Source: a virus
Virus record (IMG/VR): IMGVR_UViG_3300026512_000027
Coordinates: 1 to 42,440 of that record
Length of the DNA: 42,440 nt
Reading direction: 5' to 3' (one strand)
Positions 2,736-17,393 of this stretch are shown here, in pieces. The translations under genes and the position numbers were made by a program. How positions within the stretch are numbered: position 1 is the first letter of the stretch; every line of letters starts with the position of its first letter. Below the pieces are notes generated by a model that was not told the DNA's origin, searched no databases, and worked only from the letters and a program-made list of their open reading frames with translations.

Positions 2736-3210
2736 TGAGTTCCCTTTGTATATACTCTTCAAGTCTTTTAGGATTTAGATTATTTATTTTATGCAACTCA
2801 TCACCTAGCCAACATAATTTTAACAATCTAGCTGCACTTTCATCACAAGTCAATCTTTTTCTATCGCCTATATTCAGTTTAAAAACATCAGAACCCACAA
2901 TGTTTAGCCAATCATACTTCATTCCCAAGAAGCTATCAGCCATTTCTATCATAGCTTTTTTATTCTCTATTGATATTTCAACTTTATATTGTCTCCAATG
3001 TTTCTCATTTAGTGTCATACATTTTCGTCTATATACACCATTCCTTGTAGAAGCTGACCACCAACATATATTATCAAAACTTAGTTCTACATGGCTAGGT
3101 ACTAATTTCCACTTACCATTAAGCTTATCTTTAAAGTCAGCAGTCCACCATTGTATTCCTTTGTCAATTAAAGAACCACCGCCAATATAAAAAGCTACTG
3201 TAACTTCCAC
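2719..3210 (-). CDS. permuted NlpC/P60-like (YiiX/C92-type) cysteine peptidase
   Basis: 163 aa, starting at GTG with a GGGG site. The N-terminal part has the membrane-proximal segment IDKGIQWWT and SHVELSF (candidate catalytic His41). The C-terminal part has MKYDWLNIVG and LTCDESA (candidate nucleophile Cys). His before Cys is the order expected in circularly permuted papain-like amidases, which often cleave peptidoglycan peptides or lipid amides. In this position it may help wall degradation or genome entry. The family call rests on motif order only. Confidence 0.6.
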   Translation of the reverse strand: MEVTVAFYIGGGSLIDKGIQWWTADFKDKLNGKWKLVPSHVELSFDNICWWSASTRNGVYRRKCMTLNEKHWRQYKVEISIENKKAMIEMADSFLGMKYDWLNIVGSDVFKLNIGDRKRLTCDESAARLLKLCWLGDELHKINNLNPKRLEEYIQRELNGKNS

Positions 3211-3211
3211 A

Positions 3212-3991
3212 TTAAACCCCTATTACTTTAGCCATTTCTTGCATACCTGCCTCAAGAGCTTCACATATACTTTCAACTTCTACTTGATGTACTTTATTAT
3301 CGTAACCTTTCCAACCTATCTTAGTATCCTTATAAATAGCCTTATAAGCATCCGCTACACTTGCCCCATCAGCTAAAGCTTTGTTGAATTTATAATTAGC
3401 AAGACTAACAATTGCACCCATATTACTGATAGCTTTACCATTAGCATCATAAGCAACTGTATTTGCAGTTACAGATAATGTATCTAATGTTTTCTGTTTT
3501 TCTACCTTAGCTTTTTCTTTGAAATAAGCAGCAAGGGGTTCATAACTATTAATTCTATTTTCTGCAATTTCTGCTACTACATAAGGTCTTACAGGCTCTG
3601 TCTCTTCTGGTTCAATTAATATACCGTCATCATCATATACAGCTTCTTTAACGACTTTAGTTTCATTTAGCCACTCAGTATATGTTAAATAATCTTCTGG
3701 CGTTCTAACCTCATTACCATCCTCATCTATAGTAATGTATTTTATCTCTATTTGTGGATATTCAAACTCATCAACTTTAGGATTATCATCACTAAAATTA
3801 GCTTTATCATATTCAGCTTTTTCATCATCTATCATATCTCTCATTGACGGGTACAATGCCTCATATTCTTCATGTCTAGATTTATCCCAAGTAGCTTTGT
3901 TTTCTGCTTGATAATATTCTTTAAGTAATTGTTTAGCACCTTGAACTTTACCTTTCGATAAAGCCAAGTCTATTTTTTCTAATTTAGTCAT
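3212..3991 (-). CDS. tail-fibre-associated protein with DUF4376-like C-terminus
   Basis: 259 aa, acidic and probably helical in the first 130 residues. The C-terminal third (VTANTVAYDANGKAISNM, later W-K-G-Y-DN and EVESICEALE) matches the DUF4376 pattern found in tail-fibre assembly proteins and short fibre accessory proteins. It directly follows the large fibre gene, with an ATG one base after that gene's stop. Likely role: fibre assembly chaperone or attached accessory domain. Confidence 0.55.
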   Translation of the reverse strand: MTKLEKIDLALSKGKVQGAKQLLKEYYQAENKATWDKSRHEEYEALYPSMRDMIDDEKAEYDKANFSDDNPKVDEFEYPQIEIKYITIDEDGNEVRTPEDYLTYTEWLNETKVVKEAVYDDDGILIEPEETEPVRPYVVAEIAENRINSYEPLAAYFKEKAKVEKQKTLDTLSVTANTVAYDANGKAISNMGAIVSLANYKFNKALADGASVADAYKAIYKDTKIGWKGYDNKVHQVEVESICEALEAGMQEMAKVIGV

Positions 3992-9310: not shown

Positions 9311-9972
9311 TATACAAATCCTTTAGAAGTTACAGGTTCTTGTACCATACTACTTGCAGGTAATAACCCAAGTAATTCAGCTTGATTGCAAGCTTCTAAA
9401 TACCTTTTATATAGGGTATTTTCTTCACCTTGCACACTGTTTGTTATAGAACTATGTGCCTTATAGCCAATATAGGCTGTAGTAGCATCTAACAATTGTA
9501 ATGGTAACTCTACAATGCAATCTGTAGCACCACCTGTACCGTTATCTATAAATGTAATAAGTTTTGGATTCTTTCTGTATATTACAGAGACATAAGAATG
9601 TTCTGCTATAAGTGGTATTTGAAGTGTGTTGTAGCCAACTGTATAACAACTAAGTGGGTCACTATCATCATTTAGATTACTGACAGTACCGTCCTCATTT
9701 GTTACTGTTACCGCTACCATATATTCTTCTGGTTTTATTGTTTCACCACGCACAGTAACAGCACTATCCGTACCGTCCATCTTGTATAATGTTCTAACAT
9801 TAATCATATCTAGTGCTATTATAGCTTCATCTACAGCTAATTGGAATCTACCATACAATGCTACCATAGCTGCATTTAAGTAGTCTATCACTTCCTTATC
9901 TGTTACTTTCTTACTAGACAAAGAAGCTAACTCACCTGATCTGGCTTGAGATATTAGAAACGATAATTGCAC
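9310..9972 (-). CDS. head-tail adaptor-like protein
   Basis: 220 aa, GTG start with an AAAGGAT site. The N-terminal helices (LISQARSGELASLSSKKVTD, DYLNAAMVALYGRF) and the following beta domain resemble the helical adaptor proteins that join portal to tail in T7- and N4-like podoviruses. The C-terminal helix ends in a flexible segment. It lies immediately downstream of terL and upstream of the fibre genes, which fits a connector role. A 74-base gap holding a TATAAT-like box on this strand separates it from terL. Confidence 0.55.
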   Translation of the reverse strand: MQLSFLISQARSGELASLSSKKVTDKEVIDYLNAAMVALYGRFQLAVDEAIIALDMINVRTLYKMDGTDSAVTVRGETIKPEEYMVAVTVTNEDGTVSNLNDDSDPLSCYTVGYNTLQIPLIAEHSYVSVIYRKNPKLITFIDNGTGGATDCIVELPLQLLDATTAYIGYKAHSSITNSVQGEENTLYKRYLEACNQAELLGLLPASSMVQEPVTSKGFV

Positions 9973-10046
9973 AGGTGATCCTTTCAGCTTTTTACAAATT
10001 ATATCTTATATACTCTGTAATTAACCTTAAAGGAATCCATAACTAT

Positions 10047-13000
10047 TTAGAATATCATACTACTTCTATTATAGTCTAAATCCTCATCTTCATTATTGTC
10101 TATTTCCCATATCTCGCTATCAGCATCATCATAAATACTTCTTATACTACTAGTTTCATTATTAGGCACAACATAGTCTATTACTGCCATTTGTGATATC
10201 AAGTCAATTCCATCATCATGTGAACTGTTATGAACTACCGCTCCATTTGCTAGTGTGAAATTATGACTATGTTCTATTTGTAAATCATATACTACTTCTT
10301 TCTTTCTTTTTATGATTTTCAATATAGGCAGCATTCTTACATGCTCTAGAACAGTATTTTTTGATGCTACTACATGATATAAACTCTGTTCCACAATGCT
10401 CACATGTTTTTGGTTTTCTAAGATTGTTCCTAGTTTTTCTACACTCTTCAGAACAATATTTTGGGGTACTACTTCCTTTATGTATGAACTCAATTCCACA
10501 GGATGCACATTTGAGGGTACGAATTTTAGTGTCTCTGAGGTATTTTTCATGTTTAAGTGCACACTTTTCTGAACACCTATATTGATTTGGTACCTTTGTT
10601 TTAAACTCGTTACCACACTCAAGGCAAACTCTAACGGTGCCATTAGGAACGTAATTAGGGTTGTTGGTTTTAAGTCTATATTGCCCCCTACATTGCTGTG
10701 AACAGTACTTTGTACTGTTTTTATCTTTTTCTTTGAGCTTAAATTCAATACCACAATTTTTACAAATTCTGATTTTATTCCCTTTATTAATTTTACGCAT
10801 TTTTCTTTGACCGATGTATTTACCTTTTTTGGCCAATTTAGCCAATTCACATCTTCTTTTAATCTCTTCTGCTGTGGCCTTTCTTCCGTAGAAATGGGGG
10901 TCTTCCGCATGGTGTTTTTGATGTTTTGTAGCTGGTAGTACTTCCAAATTAGTGATTGAATTATTCTGTTTATTATGGTCCTTGTGATGAATATCCATAC
11001 CTTTTGGGATAGGGCCACACTCTTGTTCATATACATAACGGTGCAACCATCTTCTTTTACCTCCAATGTTAGTGGTGGATTGATAATATCCTGTTTGTTT
11101 AGCTGTCCATTTTTTACCATAGATTGTGATTTGTTCCATTCCTGAACCCCTGTTATAATATAGTCAGTAGCTTCCAGATCTTTTACACATACATACCCCC
11201 TATTAGTCAACACTCTATGATCAATGGTTAGGTGTATATCACCAGTAGGAAGTGTAATAGTGTATGTTTCGGCTACTCCAGATATTATAGCTGAGGTTAC
11301 CTTACAGTTTACTGACGAACCATTGTATTGAGAGATAACGGTATCACCTGCTTGAACATCTCTTATACTTAGCATACCTTTATCTGTTATAACTTTTGTG
11401 TCTGCTGATATACAGCCTATGGCAGTTTCACTCAAGTATGCCAGCTCCTCCAGCATCTCTTTCATGTCATCTGTTTCTTTTATTTCTTCAGGGAAGAATA
11501 CTTTTTTCATCTCAAAATGTGGCATACTATATTTAAACCTCTCTAGCTTATTACCCCCAACAGCTCTACTTGATATACCTATTTGTTTAGCAGATGCTCC
11601 TTTTTGTTTAGCAAACCTAAACCAAAAATTCTTTTGTATCATCATAGCTTTCAATGCTTCTACATTTAGTTGTTGCTGTCCATCTATTTCAACACCGACA
11701 TCTAATATTCTACCACCTCTACTCCATCTATTTAATACCCTAAATAAAGCATCATACTGTTCCTGCATAGTGTACTTTCTTAAGTTTAAGTCCAACAAGA
11801 ACCAACTGTCGTTAGCACTTATAGCCCATACAGCAGCACCACTGAAATCACCTTTCTTACTATTACTTGCAGTAAAGTCTGTTGTTACTACTATTGTATA
11901 GTTAGACAATTCTGGTACAATTACTTTTCTACTATACCACTGTACCATACCTTCTTTAATTAATTTATCTTCTTCACTACTAATTCTCAACATCAACTCC
12001 TGATTAAGTTCTCTTAATGTACCACTATAATAAGCATCTTCATAATTTTCCATAAACTCTTCGTATGGATGCATCTGCGGCCAGCTACATACATATTCTG
12101 ATTTAGGCATACCTAGATATACCTTTTCACATAACGGTAAACATACTGGTGTCCATACGCCACTTTCTAATGCACTATAAACAGGGTCTCTTTTATTGAA
12201 CGGAGTATTAACAGCTATCATTTTTTTCTTACTTCCCATAGCATGCTGGGCATCAGCAAATATCATACTTCTCAATTTATCCATTATTATCTTACTATTA
12301 GCATCTGCCTCCGTCTTTATAATATCGTCAAAAATTATACAATTTTTACTTATTCCAAATAATGTTTCGTATGCATGCTCTGTACCAACAACATTTTTTA
12401 AATCTGTATTATTACATTCTATAGGTACTACATCTAATTTACCTACTTGCTTTGTACTTTTGATTTTTCTCCATAACATACCATTAGCAATATGCACTTG
12501 TTTAAATCCTATTTTATTACTATCCTTTACAGAGATATTAAGTAGTTTATCCACATTAATAGTATTATCTATTCTAGCCCCTATCCAATGTTCAGTAGTT
12601 AAATCTTTTGCCTGTACCCAGTCAGATGCATACTCTATATATTCTCTTACTAATTTTTTTGTCTTGCTATCTCGTACTTGTTTACTTACACACTTTTTTG
12701 CCCAATACTTATGATCATAACTAACAAGTTCTTTAGCAGTTAATCCTCTTAAACTGACTTCTAAACATTCTTCTTTGAATTTACCAATTTGGTATGGATG
12801 CTCCTCTACCGTATATGTACCAAACTCAGTAGTAACAGTTGTTCCTACAACATGGCAACTAGGTCTTTCTGTTCTGTATCTAATACCCCTTACACCACTT
12901 GAAGCTCCTTTTACCTTATACATAAATGATCTTTTTTTAACTCTATCAGTCCCTTTCCTAATAAATTCACATTCTTCATCTGTAAATCTCATCTTCTCAA

Positions 13001-13655
13001 AATACCCTTTACAGAACTCACTATCTTCGCAGAAGTCTCTAATAGTATTTGCTTGTACTTTTGCACCACCTTTTTGACTATCACCAAAACCTACTACAAA
13101 CATCACATCACCAAAGTTTGGTATCTTACCAGTGATTGCTACATATATAGGTAAGTATGCTGTTATAATCGTAGACTTTGCAGAAAATCTTGCTGCAATT
13201 ATAGCTATTTTTCTACTATTAATTCTTATTTTATCATTGATTTCTTTACTATATGGATACTTGTCTCTTGTTATATTATCGAATACTAAATCTACTAGGA
13301 AGTAATGCATCAAACTATTAGGTACTTCAGGTTCCCCTCCTAATACTAATCTTATAATATTAAAAAACTCTATAGCATCTTTACTAGGTTTATAACCATT
13401 AAACATTAAATCTATATTGTCAAGGGCTTTATCTACATTAAATTCATAGTCAGGTCTTTTTCTAATCCTAATTTCTCTAGGTTTTTCTATAACTCCTTCT
13501 TCAACTAATTGTTCATACTCTTCCCAATCACCTACAGGAACATTAGGATCTTCTACTTTACCAATTATACTATCTTCATCTTTTTTAGGTCTAACTTCTA
13601 CTATAACCTCTTCTTTATCGTCCTTAAATTCCCCATACCCTTTAAGCTTCGCCAT
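10047..13655 (-). CDS. terL: terminase large subunit interrupted by two inteins
   Basis: 1202 aa as read, about 634 aa after removal of two inteins. The ATPase domain has a deviant Walker A (ARFSAKST, residues 155-162) and Walker B split by intein 1 (CIIFDD, residues 439-444). The nuclease domain has VVTTDFTAS (D593), VGVEIDG (E656) and SSHDDGIDL (residues 1144-1152), the last split from the preceding residues by intein 2. The enzyme packages DNA: its ATPase drives translocation and its RNase H-like nuclease cuts concatemers. Both inteins sit in catalytic motifs, so unspliced protein should be inactive. It overlaps terS by 14 bases. Splicing is inferred from intein motifs and the clean extein junctions. 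Confidence 0.92.
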   Translation of the reverse strand: MAKLKGYGEFKDDKEEVIVEVRPKKDEDSIIGKVEDPNVPVGDWEEYEQLVEEGVIEKPREIRIRKRPDYEFNVDKALDNIDLMFNGYKPSKDAIEFFNIIRLVLGGEPEVPNSLMHYFLVDLVFDNITRDKYPYSKEINDKIRINSRKIAIIAARFSAKSTIITAYLPIYVAITGKIPNFGDVMFVVGFGDSQKGGAKVQANTIRDFCEDSEFCKGYFEKMRFTDEECEFIRKGTDRVKKRSFMYKVKGASSGVRGIRYRTERPSCHVVGTTVTTEFGTYTVEEHPYQIGKFKEECLEVSLRGLTAKELVSYDHKYWAKKCVSKQVRDSKTKKLVREYIEYASDWVQAKDLTTEHWIGARIDNTINVDKLLNISVKDSNKIGFKQVHIANGMLWRKIKSTKQVGKLDVVPIECNNTDLKNVVGTEHAYETLFGISKNCIIFDDIIKTEADANSKIIMDKLRSMIFADAQHAMGSKKKMIAVNTPFNKRDPVYSALESGVWTPVCLPLCEKVYLGMPKSEYVCSWPQMHPYEEFMENYEDAYYSGTLRELNQELMLRISSEEDKLIKEGMVQWYSRKVIVPELSNYTIVVTTDFTASNSKKGDFSGAAVWAISANDSWFLLDLNLRKYTMQEQYDALFRVLNRWSRGGRILDVGVEIDGQQQLNVEALKAMMIQKNFWFRFAKQKGASAKQIGISSRAVGGNKLERFKYSMPHFEMKKVFFPEEIKETDDMKEMLEELAYLSETAIGCISADTKVITDKGMLSIRDVQAGDTVISQYNGSSVNCKVTSAIISGVAETYTITLPTGDIHLTIDHRVLTNRGYVCVKDLEATDYIITGVQEWNKSQSMVKNGQLNKQDIINPPLTLEVKEDGCTVMYMNKSVALSQKVWIFITRTIINRIIQSLIWKYYQLQNIKNTMRKTPISTEERPQQKRLKEDVNWLNWPKKVNTSVKEKCVKLIKGIKSEFVKIVVLNLSSKKKIKTVQSTVHSNVGGNIDLKPTTLITFLMAPLEFALSVVTSLKQRYQINIGVQKSVHLNMKNTSETLKFVPSNVHPVELSSYIKEVVPQNIVLKSVEKLGTILENQKHVSIVEQSLYHVVASKNTVLEHVRMLPILKIIKRKKEVVYDLQIEHSHNFTLANGAVVHNSSHDDGIDLISQMAVIDYVVPNNETSSIRSIYDDADSEIWEIDNNEDEDLDYNRSSMIF
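10227..11414 (-). mobile_element. intein in TerL nuclease motif, with out-of-frame endonuclease gene
   Basis: 396 residues (C748-N1143), followed by S1144. The N-terminal splicing domain runs from CISADTKVITDKGMLSIRDV through LTIDHRVL (block B, TIDH) to DLEATDYIITG. The C-terminal blocks are VVYDLQIEHSHNFTLANG and AVVHN. Removal joins SETAIG to SSHDDGIDL, the nuclease motif III region. Between the splicing blocks the intein frame stays open for about 284 codons but has no recognisable endonuclease. That stretch encodes an HNH protein in another frame of the same strand. Confidence 0.88.
10285..11139 (-). CDS. HNH homing endonuclease nested out of frame inside TerL intein 2
   Basis: 284 aa, read in a different frame from TerL (offset 2). 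The N-terminus has the HNH core LHRYVYEQECGPIPKGMD, IHHKDHNKQNN and NLEVLPATKHQ. Then come four zinc-finger-like repeats of the form CxxCGxEF...YCSxxC (CKNCGIEF, CLECGNEF, CASCGIEF, CEHCGTEF), likely for DNA recognition. It has its own AGGGG/CAGGA-type ribosome binding site inside the intein coding sequence. Its TGA lies exactly where the intein C-terminal block begins (within the VVYD codons). It should cut intein-less terL alleles to drive homing. Translation from the nested start is inference. Confidence 0.85.
   Translation of the reverse strand: MEQITIYGKKWTAKQTGYYQSTTNIGGKRRWLHRYVYEQECGPIPKGMDIHHKDHNKQNNSITNLEVLPATKHQKHHAEDPHFYGRKATAEEIKRRCELAKLAKKGKYIGQRKMRKINKGNKIRICKNCGIEFKLKEKDKNSTKYCSQQCRGQYRLKTNNPNYVPNGTVRVCLECGNEFKTKVPNQYRCSEKCALKHEKYLRDTKIRTLKCASCGIEFIHKGSSTPKYCSEECRKTRNNLRKPKTCEHCGTEFISCSSIKKYCSRACKNAAYIENHKKKERSSI
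12342..12857 (-). mobile_element. mini-intein in TerL Walker B site
   Basis: 172 residues (C267-N438 of the TerL frame), followed by C439. Block A starts CHVVGTTVTTEFGTYTVEEH, a block B-like YDH lies at residues 313-315, and WVQAKDL fits a following strand. The end is EHAYETLFGISKN, then C. Removing it joins RTERPS to CIIFDD, a normal pre-Walker B/Walker B sequence. It is too short for an endonuclease domain. The usual penultimate His before the final Asn is Lys here, although the upstream His (H428) is kept. Confidence 0.8.
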
Positions 13656-14388
13656 CAGTATTCCCTGTATCTAATTCTAATCCTACTCGTTGAACATCAA
13701 CAATGTTAGCCCCACCTTGTAATCTGTCATATTGTATTTGGCTCATCTTACCCAATTGTTCAAACAACTTAGTTTGCATATTTGTAGCAGCTTCTGTTGG
13801 TCCTACATTTAAATCAATTACAGCAGTGTCTGGTCCTTTAGTAGCTGCTAACAACTCTTTAGCAGCATTTATCTTATCTCTATCTAACTTAGCATTTACC
13901 ATTACTCTAGCCAATACACTTACAGCTTTCATTCTTTCAACTTGGAACACTATGTGTAATGGTAATTCACTTTGTGCTAGTATCTTTCTAACTAACTTAC
14001 TTTTTCTATACCTACTAGCAGCAGCATACAATGAGTTATACTCATTACTATCTACCTCACAGTCTAATCTAGCTCTAACAAAGTCATCCCTAGGTCTAGC
14101 TTTCTTATAAGCTTCTACAAGGGATGTTTCAACTTCTAAATATGCACAGAACATCAAAGCATTAGTGTACTCCTGTATGCTGGCTTTAGTATCCAACAAT
14201 ATACTTTGGTAATCTATTAATGTTCCTATAAATGTACCAGCATCAAAATCTGGATTCTCCATTATATCATTAACATAATCTACAACTTCTTGTGTTATTG
14301 CATTCTTTTTAACTGGTAATTTATCTTTAAGTTCTTCTACTGTAAGTCTTTTTCTATTTCGTTTAATTCCGAAAGTACTACTTGTCAT
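13642..14388 (-). CDS. terS: terminase small subunit
   Basis: 248 aa, directly upstream of and overlapping terL. Helical throughout. The segment FCAYLEVETSLVEAYKKARP resembles a helix-turn-helix region, and the C-terminal part (DKINAAKELLAATKGPD and on to VQRVGLELDTG) is typical of small terminases that assemble into rings and recognise the packaging site. Assignment rests on position and on the conserved INAAKELL segment. Confidence 0.7.
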   Translation of the reverse strand: MTSSTFGIKRNRKRLTVEELKDKLPVKKNAITQEVVDYVNDIMENPDFDAGTFIGTLIDYQSILLDTKASIQEYTNALMFCAYLEVETSLVEAYKKARPRDDFVRARLDCEVDSNEYNSLYAAASRYRKSKLVRKILAQSELPLHIVFQVERMKAVSVLARVMVNAKLDRDKINAAKELLAATKGPDTAVIDLNVGPTEAATNMQTKLFEQLGKMSQIQYDRLQGGANIVDVQRVGLELDTGNTDGEA

Positions 14389-15176: not shown

Positions 15177-17393
15177 CTATCCACACTTTTTCTTTGTAAA
15201 CAATTCTTCAGCAAACATAGCCATCTTACTTCTCACAACTTTACTAAGTTGTATAGCAAACATTTCTACATCACAATTTATCTCCTTTCTACAAGCTTCA
15301 TCCATCAATAAAGCCATACCATTATTATAAACACTCAGATACTTATTATCTATCTGTCTCTTGCTACCAATTACAATTACTTTACAATCTTTACCAACTC
15401 TAGTCAGCACCTTCTGCATAGTAGCAGGACTATAGTTAGTAGCCTCATCAAGTATTATAACAGCATTATGAAATGTTCTACCTCTTAATCCAGTAGTTAT
15501 TATAGTATCTATTCCATAGTTCTTTACCATCTCTGCTACTTTATTCTCTATCTTTATATCATAATCTGCTTTCTTACCACTTTTATATGGTGTACAACTT
15601 CTCATCATAAAGTCTAGAGTATCTTTAGCAGCTCCTAGATACAAATCCATCTTCTCTGTATTCCCAGCTAAATACCCAATGTCTTCACCTAAATCTTCAT
15701 CATTAGTTGGTGATCTTACATATACTAATTTTTGATATTTATCTTTATTCATTTGCATTATTCGTATAGCATTACTAAAGGCTACAATTGTATTATGGGT
15801 AAGATTATATCCATTAGTGATATATAAATGATCACTACTATCAACTGATATACAAGTAGCATTTTCTCTATGACTATACTCTATAGCAACAATTGATTTT
15901 GGTTTATTAGCCATTTGTCTTAATCTCCAACTTTTATGTCCTTCTTTTAACTCTCCTTTATGCCTACTATTAATAGTAAACACTTTACCTAAGCTTCTAC
16001 TTAATTCTAAGTAATCCTTAGCTAATTGCTCAGACGATGTAGAATACTCTTTAACTATCCCATTCTTATCAACATTACCACCTGTATCTGTTAGTCCTTG
16101 CCACAAGGCCTTTCTATTCTCAAGTGAATTATATAAATATTCACTAGGTATATGTTTATCTACAGGTAACTCACCTCCTAATAATAATCCTATAACATAA
16201 GGATCTATAGGTAACTTCATACCATTAGAAAACTCACAAGCTTCTGCTTTAGGTATAGAAAAATTATAATAAGATCGATAAGTACCATATCTTTTATCAT
16301 AACGATCTTTTCGAATCCAAGTATTAAGCATTTCCCTTACTGTTACATTCTTATATCCACTATCACGCATACCTTTCGTTCTTTCTCTCACAGACCATAT
16401 ATGATCTATATCACATAAGACTTCTGTACCATCTATAAAACTTACTTTATAAATATCTCTTTCTCCTTGTGGATAGATTGCTGTAACATTTTTTGCTTTA
16501 CCATCAGAACCAATAACTTTATCCCCAGGTCTTATCTCACCTATTGTAGTCCAACCTTTATCGGTAAGTACTCTTTCACTATTTGGTTGTGCCTTCCCTG
16601 ATCCTGCAGGACCTTCTATCAACACCATATCAATATTTTCATCCTGTATGGCCTTACTGACTAATAATTGTTCAGCATTAATAGAAGCAACCATTTGTTT
16701 TCTTAACAACTTCTCAGTATCTCTACCGATAACATTTATATACCCATTACTAATAGTAGCTAACTTAACTTGACCACTTTGACTACTAGTAAATTTATAA
16801 CTATAATTCTCAGTATTAACTTCATCTACAACATCTTCTATCTTACTGTTATGCAATCTACTAAACATTTCTTCATCATCAATCTTAACTTCTCTAACAA
16901 ACTCATATTCATCTTTGTCACTTATTTTAAACTCTTCAACAACTAATCCAGTGGACATAGCATTCAATCTAGCCATAACATCATTACTAAAGAATACAAC
17001 ATCATATCCATTATCTACTACAGCTTTAGCAGTATTTATTATTCTCTTATCATTATAACTATCTTCCCCTACTCTAACACCATAATCATATAATTTAACA
17101 ACAAGTATCACTGTACCATCATTATGCATTAACTTAGTCCATACATCTCCAGTACCCTCAGGACCAGTAGTTTTAACATCAGTAACAGTACATTGTGCTA
17201 AATACCTACCAACACTTCTAGCTTGATAAGCAACTTCACCATATCCATTCTTCTTACTATCGCATTCTTCCAACACTATACTAGGTAGTACAACAGCATC
17301 ATAATTTCTACCAATAGCATTAATATTTCCAGCATCTAATAACAATATATTTGTATCAACAACAGCTACTCTATTTATATCTTTTACTATCAT
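15177..17393 (-). CDS. phoH: PhoH-family ATPase with PIN-like N-terminus and a class 3 intein
   Basis: 738 aa as read, 471 aa after splicing. The N-terminal 150 residues look like a PIN nuclease domain (VAVVDTNILLLD with D13, VLPSIVLEE, ending FFSNDVMARLNA). The PhoH ATPase follows: IEGPAGSGK/T split by the intein (residues 259-267 and 535), PTNDEDLGEDIGYLAGN, GLRGRTFHNAVIILDEATN (Walker B, DE at 649-650) and IGSKRQID. PIN-PhoH proteins are RNA-handling ATPases of uncertain role and are common in phages. Ribosome binding site AGAAGGAAAG. It lies downstream of the ClpP-like gene and a 61-aa protein, probably in one operon. Confidence 0.9.
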   Translation of the reverse strand: MIVKDINRVAVVDTNILLLDAGNINAIGRNYDAVVLPSIVLEECDSKKNGYGEVAYQARSVGRYLAQCTVTDVKTTGPEGTGDVWTKLMHNDGTVILVVKLYDYGVRVGEDSYNDKRIINTAKAVVDNGYDVVFFSNDVMARLNAMSTGLVVEEFKISDKDEYEFVREVKIDDEEMFSRLHNSKIEDVVDEVNTENYSYKFTSSQSGQVKLATISNGYINVIGRDTEKLLRKQMVASINAEQLLVSKAIQDENIDMVLIEGPAGSGKAQPNSERVLTDKGWTTIGEIRPGDKVIGSDGKAKNVTAIYPQGERDIYKVSFIDGTEVLCDIDHIWSVRERTKGMRDSGYKNVTVREMLNTWIRKDRYDKRYGTYRSYYNFSIPKAEACEFSNGMKLPIDPYVIGLLLGGELPVDKHIPSEYLYNSLENRKALWQGLTDTGGNVDKNGIVKEYSTSSEQLAKDYLELSRSLGKVFTINSRHKGELKEGHKSWRLRQMANKPKSIVAIEYSHRENATCISVDSSDHLYITNGYNLTHNTIVAFSNAIRIMQMNKDKYQKLVYVRSPTNDEDLGEDIGYLAGNTEKMDLYLGAAKDTLDFMMRSCTPYKSGKKADYDIKIENKVAEMVKNYGIDTIITTGLRGRTFHNAVIILDEATNYSPATMQKVLTRVGKDCKVIVIGSKRQIDNKYLSVYNNGMALLMDEACRKEINCDVEMFAIQLSKVVRSKMAMFAEELFTKKKCG
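15792..16592 (-). mobile_element. class 3 (WCT) intein in the PhoH P-loop, endonuclease degenerate
   Basis: 267 residues (A268-N534), inserted between GSGK and T535. There is no Cys or Ser at position 1. The class 3 triad is visible: W333 two residues after block B H331 (DHIW), C514 in block F (ATCISVD) and T532 before the final HN (LTHN). The middle has a shortened LAGLIDADG-type domain (PYVIGLLLGGELP, HIPSEYLYNS, WQGLTDTGGNV). The acidic residues normally ending each LAGLIDADG motif are Gly (G407, G438), and the segment between the motifs is much shorter than usual, so the endonuclease is probably dead. Confidence 0.88.

Follow-up and report, generated by a model that had tools for sequence, protein, structure and literature searches.

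An out-of-frame HNH endonuclease gene nested within an open intein of a phage terminase gene

The second intein of the terminase large subunit gene (terL) in the window, as the whole analysed stretch of 42,440 nucleotides of viral DNA is called here, contains an HNH endonuclease gene that lies entirely inside terL and is offset by one base from the TerL frame. The element is very probably an active-looking mobile intein with a homing endonuclease encoded as an overprinted, separately translated gene. Splicing and mobility, the two jobs of an intein, would here be split into two proteins from one DNA stretch. The nested arrangement recurs in related phages and looks like a genuine, largely overlooked mobile-element design.

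The terL gene and intein 2

The terL gene is a single open reading frame of 1202 codons with no stops, and the original prediction that TerL stays open across all of intein 2 was borne out. The features of the locus are as follows:

10047-13655, minus strand: terL, terminase large subunit gene with two inteins (from the ORF list; match to phrog_38, terminase large subunit, 1.2e-41)
12342-12857, minus strand: TerL intein 1, a 172-aa mini-intein at the Walker B region, separate from the nested element
10227-11414, minus strand: intein 2, 396 aa (Cys1, block B TxxH, terminal His-Asn, +1 Ser)
11137-11414, minus strand: N-terminal Hint half of intein 2, residues 1 to ~92 (pLDDT 90-97 over residues 1-90)
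10227-10295, minus strand: C-terminal blocks F and G of intein 2 (VVYDLQIEHSHNFTLANGAVVHN), with the HNH TGA within the opening codons
10285-11139, minus strand: nested HNH homing-endonuclease-like gene, 284 aa, on the same strand as terL (TerL frame = HNH frame +1)
10933-11001, minus strand: HNH core GMDIHHKDHNKQNNSITNLEVLP (His/His/Asp/Asn invariant across 26 relatives)
10339-10764, minus strand: four CxxC-x(n)-CxxxC zinc-ribbon-like modules (10690-10764, 10561-10626, 10441-10509, 10339-10404)
11140-11165, minus strand: leader of the HNH start codon, Shine-Dalgarno-like AGGGG/CAGGA, with an HNH-frame stop 24 nt upstream of the ATG

Intein 2 is inserted at ...ETAIG/SSHDDGIDLIS (the slash marks the junction), adjoining the TerL nuclease motif. 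It extends from Cys1 (CISADTK) at 11414 to the terminal Asn at 10227 (...VVHN/S), with block B (LTIDH) at 11217-11231. Both Hint halves are complete and carry the motifs that place the element among inteins (nucleophile, TxxH, HN and +1 Ser). The TerL frame of intein 2 is matched by Pfam Intein_splicing (6.8e-12), and its Hint fold resembles mini-inteins in Foldseek (E ~1e-6). AlphaFold2 gives confident Hint halves in the TerL frame (residues ~1-90 and 357-396, mostly pLDDT 86-97), while the overprinted segment between them is poorly predicted. Precise in-frame insertion is seen against intein-less homologues, namely the TerL of locus L012 and, for the Acinetobacter phage Highwayman, an exact insert of 981 nt. 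If both inteins splice, a mature TerL of ~634 aa is predicted. A group I or group II intron as the insert was rejected, the Rfam intron search of 9900-13700 giving zero matches up to E=1.

The nested HNH gene

The HNH gene starts at intein residue ~92 and ends in a TGA (10285-10287) in the first few codons of block F, where the original prediction had placed it. This is the usual endonuclease position of inteins, the insertion site of which is highly conserved (Beyer et al. 2019, PMC6801210). The predicted gene of 284 codons, in another frame of the same strand and with an HNH core and four CxxC repeats, was recovered in all these respects. Pfam HNH_3 matches residues 30-74 of the nested protein (1.7e-16), and membership in this family is further indicated by the HNH motif and the conserved His and Asn residues, with H51, H52, D54, N59, N60, N64 and H73 invariant in 26 HNH sequences. 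The AlphaFold2 model of the HNH frame has a mean pLDDT of 83 and 95-97 in the core. The best match among solved structures, by sequence and by fold, is I-HmuI (1u3e). The endonuclease of a conventional intein shares the frame of the Hint domain; the HNH gene of the window does not, having its own ATG and TGA.

Openness and selection in the two frames

Across the HNH span, the TerL frame has 0 stops and the third frame has 49. When the HNH amino acids were kept and codons were drawn from the usage of the other window genes, 14.2 +/- 2.4 TerL-frame stops were expected against the 0 observed (0/5000 draws). Shuffling of synonymous codons within the gene gave an expectation of 5.9 +/- 1.4 stops, again against none (0/5000), and an exact calculation put the probability of no TerL-frame stop at ~10^-13. 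In the reverse test, with the TerL-frame residues kept, the HNH frame had one stop, its own terminator, against 24.6 +/- 3.7 expected. Chance openness of the TerL frame was rejected under three nulls.

Both frames are under selection, each in a different manner. In related nested loci, differences within the overlap cluster at HNH codon position 3 (for the pair L031/L046, 37, 23 and 90 by codon position), and identity is higher in the HNH frame than in the host frame (76% vs 51%). In the N-terminal Hint region, the differences cluster at host codon position 3 instead. No selection on the TerL-frame peptide was seen in the overlap beyond openness, so a floppy filler of 265 residues must be tolerated by splicing.

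The same is found at greater distance. The closest relative among the matches listed, L100, has a TerL with the same two inteins and an HNH gene nested in the same phase, and its intein 2 site is shared with the window (HN/CKHDDGMDLLS in L100 vs HN/SSHDDGIDLIS). The two HNH proteins are 45% identical, the host-frame peptides 28% and the unused third frames 25%; the overlap in L100 has 0 stops vs 10.1 +/- 1.9 expected. With zero stops and a host-frame identity near the level of the third frame, the TerL frame has been kept open across deep divergence and its similarity has not. L101 is identical to L100 across their shared stretch, and the two are filed under different Candidatus lineages (Falkowbacteria and Shapirobacteria); they are probably one phage or a contaminant.

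Translation and proposed mechanism

The original prediction gave the HNH gene its own ribosome-binding site. The start of the window gene, AACAGGGGTTCAGGA-ATG, has a pairing energy of -6.0 kcal/mol vs a mean of -1.7 at the other ATGs of the ORF, which makes such a site plausible. Against composition shuffles, the Shine-Dalgarno strength of nested starts is only marginally higher (P 0.05). Over the nested HNH starts, mean anti-Shine-Dalgarno pairing is -4.1 vs -2.05 kcal/mol at other ATGs taken from the same ORFs (P 1e-4). With the start codon assigned as the last ATG preceding homology, 41/57 nested loci have an HNH-frame stop no more than 30 nt ahead of the start, and 26 have one no more than 12 nt ahead of it. 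The HNH frame being closed just upstream in these 41 loci, internal initiation is needed.

In the proposed mechanism, the TerL frame would be read through the whole element, and the Hint halves would fold together around the long filler peptide and splice to give the mature TerL. From an internal ATG on the same RNA, in the other frame, a free HNH/zinc-ribbon endonuclease would be made. This enzyme would cut intein-less terL, and repair would copy the whole element in. Protein splicing, internal initiation and cutting of the empty terL site are inferred. The original reading of a spliceable TerL with a free overprinted endonuclease gains support from L100 and dozens of other loci that are nested alike with different sequences.

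Relatives and scale of the family

Scans of IMG/VR with a single HNH or TerL sequence returned few relatives, and an HNH alignment was required; with it, at least 80 loci were found. The first set of matches listed, drawn from IMG/VR, from phage records and from the window itself, comprises 95 loci; nesting is seen in 57, of which 48 have phase +1 and 9 have phase +2. Nested members make up ~70 of the 133 family members among the matches listed vs 2.6 expected by chance, and 40 of the 95 listed members with a chance P<0.01 vs 0.10 expected; these counts are not population frequencies, as the query alignment held nested members and some loci are near-copies. The search of relatives proposed with the original prediction thus found the same nesting in L100 and about half of the listed family, and two corrections apply to the original prediction, which knew of no described example with this exact geometry: the arrangement is common in this HNH family, and the ShiLan insertion, which lacks an intein, is a near precedent in the literature (PMC11855218).

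Directly after the HNH gene, the host ORF continues with a C-terminal intein block (e.g. ANGILVHN/C) in 57/57 nested loci, and Pfam Intein_splicing matches 46/48. The nested hosts are mostly TerL, with two portal proteins (L022 and L043). A genome scan added further nested loci, including L110, L121, L131, L134 and L136. Three nested genes belong to named isolates: Tetrasphaera phage TJE1, Acinetobacter phage Highwayman and Rhodobacteraceae phage LS06-2018-MD07. Over all three, GenBank annotates only 'terminase'. For TJE1, the stop statistic is uninformative (P 0.18) because of the GC-rich genome, and the nesting there therefore rests on the intein and HNH blocks.

Phase +2 nesting is found in L026, L027, L028, L029, L040, L042, L052, L070 and L094 (and in L122 and L160). 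In the nine-locus phase +2 TerL clade, 12-18 stops were expected per gene and 0 were found, which suggests a second origin.

Other arrangements also occur. HNH_3 inteins with the endonuclease in frame are found in the PolA of L148 and L155. Free-standing members of the HNH family of the window stand beside terminase genes in Acinetobacter phage BP10, Pseudomonas phage FBPa53 and Exiguobacterium phage EauM-23. In BP10 (L014), the gene lies at 2902-3543, just upstream of terS, and terL looks intein-less; this HNH is a candidate for an endonuclease that departed its intein.

Mobility of the element

The TerL of Highwayman differs from that of Acinetobacter phage Acba_21 by an exact in-frame insert of 981 nt (327 codons), inside which the nested HNH is carried, and is otherwise 98.8% identical. 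Over 1302 nt there are 15 mismatches, more than half of them (8) in the 14 nt immediately downstream of the insertion site, and the +1 residue, Leu in Acba_21, is Cys in Highwayman, as splicing requires. The element has moved as a unit, and the pattern is that left by homing with co-conversion. Among the sequences searched, no near-identical intein-less sibling of the window phage was found, the only intein-less TerL being that of L012 (50-63% identical); mobility is therefore demonstrated for the Highwayman element and not for the window copy.

Fractured relatives and evolution

Among annotated phages, the closest HNH relatives are those of Vibrio phages 1.238.A and 1.245.O (41% identical), in which TerL-N, HNH and TerL-C are separate ORFs with many stops between them. 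About 20 family loci appear fractured by motif scan, including L001, L002 and L005. A quick tree of the HNH sequences joins the window with the nested L100/L101 and the fractured Vibrio phages at 98% SH-aLRT; across the tree, the two states are clustered, yet have changed several times. Both Vibrio TerL halves are in the same frame, which is consistent with a nested ancestor of the fractured gene. As the tree is unrooted with many weak branches and the fractured label comes from the motif scan, the direction from nested to fractured is only a proposal.

A broader generalization is that overprinted inteins, with the HNH out of frame in cis-splicing inteins, constitute a widespread and stable class of mobile elements that arose at least two times (phases +1 and +2) and is intermediate to fractured genes and split inteins. 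This is put forward tentatively, with a chance somewhat short of even. The overprinted form could serve as a precursor of split inteins because its endonuclease no longer depends on the host frame by the time that frame acquires a stop. A route leading from ordinary inteins both to split inteins and to free-standing endonucleases becomes testable; the HNH clade of the window has both nested and fractured members.

Alternative explanations

The split arrangement of the Vibrio phages and the ~20 fractured-looking loci raise the question of whether the window locus is itself a fractured gene, in which two TerL pieces would trans-splice, the HNH would be free between them and the open frame would be an accident. 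A fractured host gene is broken by stops into two ORFs, whereas terL has none in 1202 codons; accidental openness has a probability of ~1e-13 in the window, in dozens of relatives, too, openness greatly exceeds chance expectation, and genuinely fractured members have stop counts at or above expectation (14 host-frame stops vs 8.7 in the Vibrio locus). This explanation is accordingly held to be very improbable. Sequencing or assembly frameshifts in a conventional in-frame HNH intein are barely credible. The record is metagenome-derived and in-frame HNH_3 inteins do exist in PolA, but two compensating errors would be required at the HNH edges, the HNH gene is bounded by an ATG and a TGA of its own and preceded, at a distance of 24 nt, by a stop, and the same geometry is found in independent records, including finished isolate genomes. 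No relative with an in-frame HNH differing by a single indel at the window locus appeared, an outcome that would have counted against the original prediction. With the nesting recurring across independent records, sequencing frameshift was rejected.

The overprinted gene might also be expressed by programmed frameshifting, as a fusion of TerL-N and HNH, instead of by internal initiation. The common strand and the one-base offset would permit this, and in some members the sequence may be compatible with it; it is nevertheless highly unlikely and disfavoured by the stops adjoining the HNH start (within 30 nt in 41 of 57 loci, within 12 nt in 26), by the homology of free-standing relatives, which begins near the same ATG, and by the presence of both phases among the nested loci. 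Finally, the TerL mini-intein may have been domesticated, with the HNH kept for other work than homing, for instance to cut rival phages or to help in packaging. The family HNH genes adjoining the terminase genes of BP10, FBPa53 and EauM-23 would fit this, but the Highwayman element moved as a unit into a near-identical TerL and left a co-conversion-like patch, which counts against domestication because homing predicts such a pattern; domestication is considered very unlikely. A mobile intein with an overprinted, separately translated endonuclease is the reading preferred here.

Comparison with known systems

Fractured genes, reportedly described by Dassa and colleagues in 2009 (cited in PMC8228797), are said to contain split inteins with an intervening free-standing endonuclease. 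In them, the endonuclease is a separate gene between the intein halves, and the same HNH family is found in Vibrio and Lactobacillus phages. In the window, by contrast, no stop breaks the host frame and the overprinting is complete, which makes cis splicing possible. Conventional HNH inteins (PolA of L148 and L155) resemble the window element in combining Hint with HNH_3 at the canonical endonuclease site; their endonuclease, however, is read in the frame of the Hint domain and belongs to the intein polypeptide, while that of the window is out of frame. I-HmuI-type enzymes (1u3e) have the HNH core in common with the window protein and are its best match, by sequence and fold, among solved structures. 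They are, however, carried in a self-splicing group I RNA intron, not overprinted on an intein, and differ from the window protein in the four zinc-ribbon-like modules at its end.

Apart from the ShiLan work, a literature search for inteins with an out-of-frame endonuclease yielded only a genome note that deals with a similar methylase. The ShiLan insertion places a zinc-finger HNH gene out of frame within a phage methylase ORF that stays open. Its authors detected neither an intein nor an intron, neither splicing motifs nor a ribosome-binding site, and they propose that the insert remains in the protein, with a sporadic distribution that implies homing (PMC11855218). The window shares with ShiLan an HNH in another frame and an insert that leaves the host frame open. 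The difference lies in the TerL frame of the window, where complete Hint halves, located at essential TerL motifs, would be expected to splice. The complete Hint domain predicted in the host frame would be what is new relative to ShiLan. As cited in that work (PMC11855218), a preprint deals with actinophage inteins of 'non-canonical architecture' (10.1101/2025.01.02.630785; Gosselin et al. 2025) and may already describe overprinted endonucleases.

Intein surveys restricted to the host frame would have recorded the overprinted region as a meaningless linker and overlooked the endonuclease, and annotation pipelines miss the nested gene, as in TJE1, Highwayman and LS06-2018-MD07. For studies of overprinting, the family provides dozens of long gene overlaps on the same strand, in both phases.

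Other inteins of the window

The L100 orthologue of TerL intein 1 retains LAGLIDADG-like motifs, so the endonuclease of this intein was apparently lost in the window lineage. A further in-frame LAGLIDADG intein interrupts the Walker A motif of a gene for PhoH with a PIN domain (15177-17393, minus strand). The junctions of this intein are GSGK/AQPNSERV...LTHN/TIVAFS, and its first residue is apparently Ala instead of Cys.
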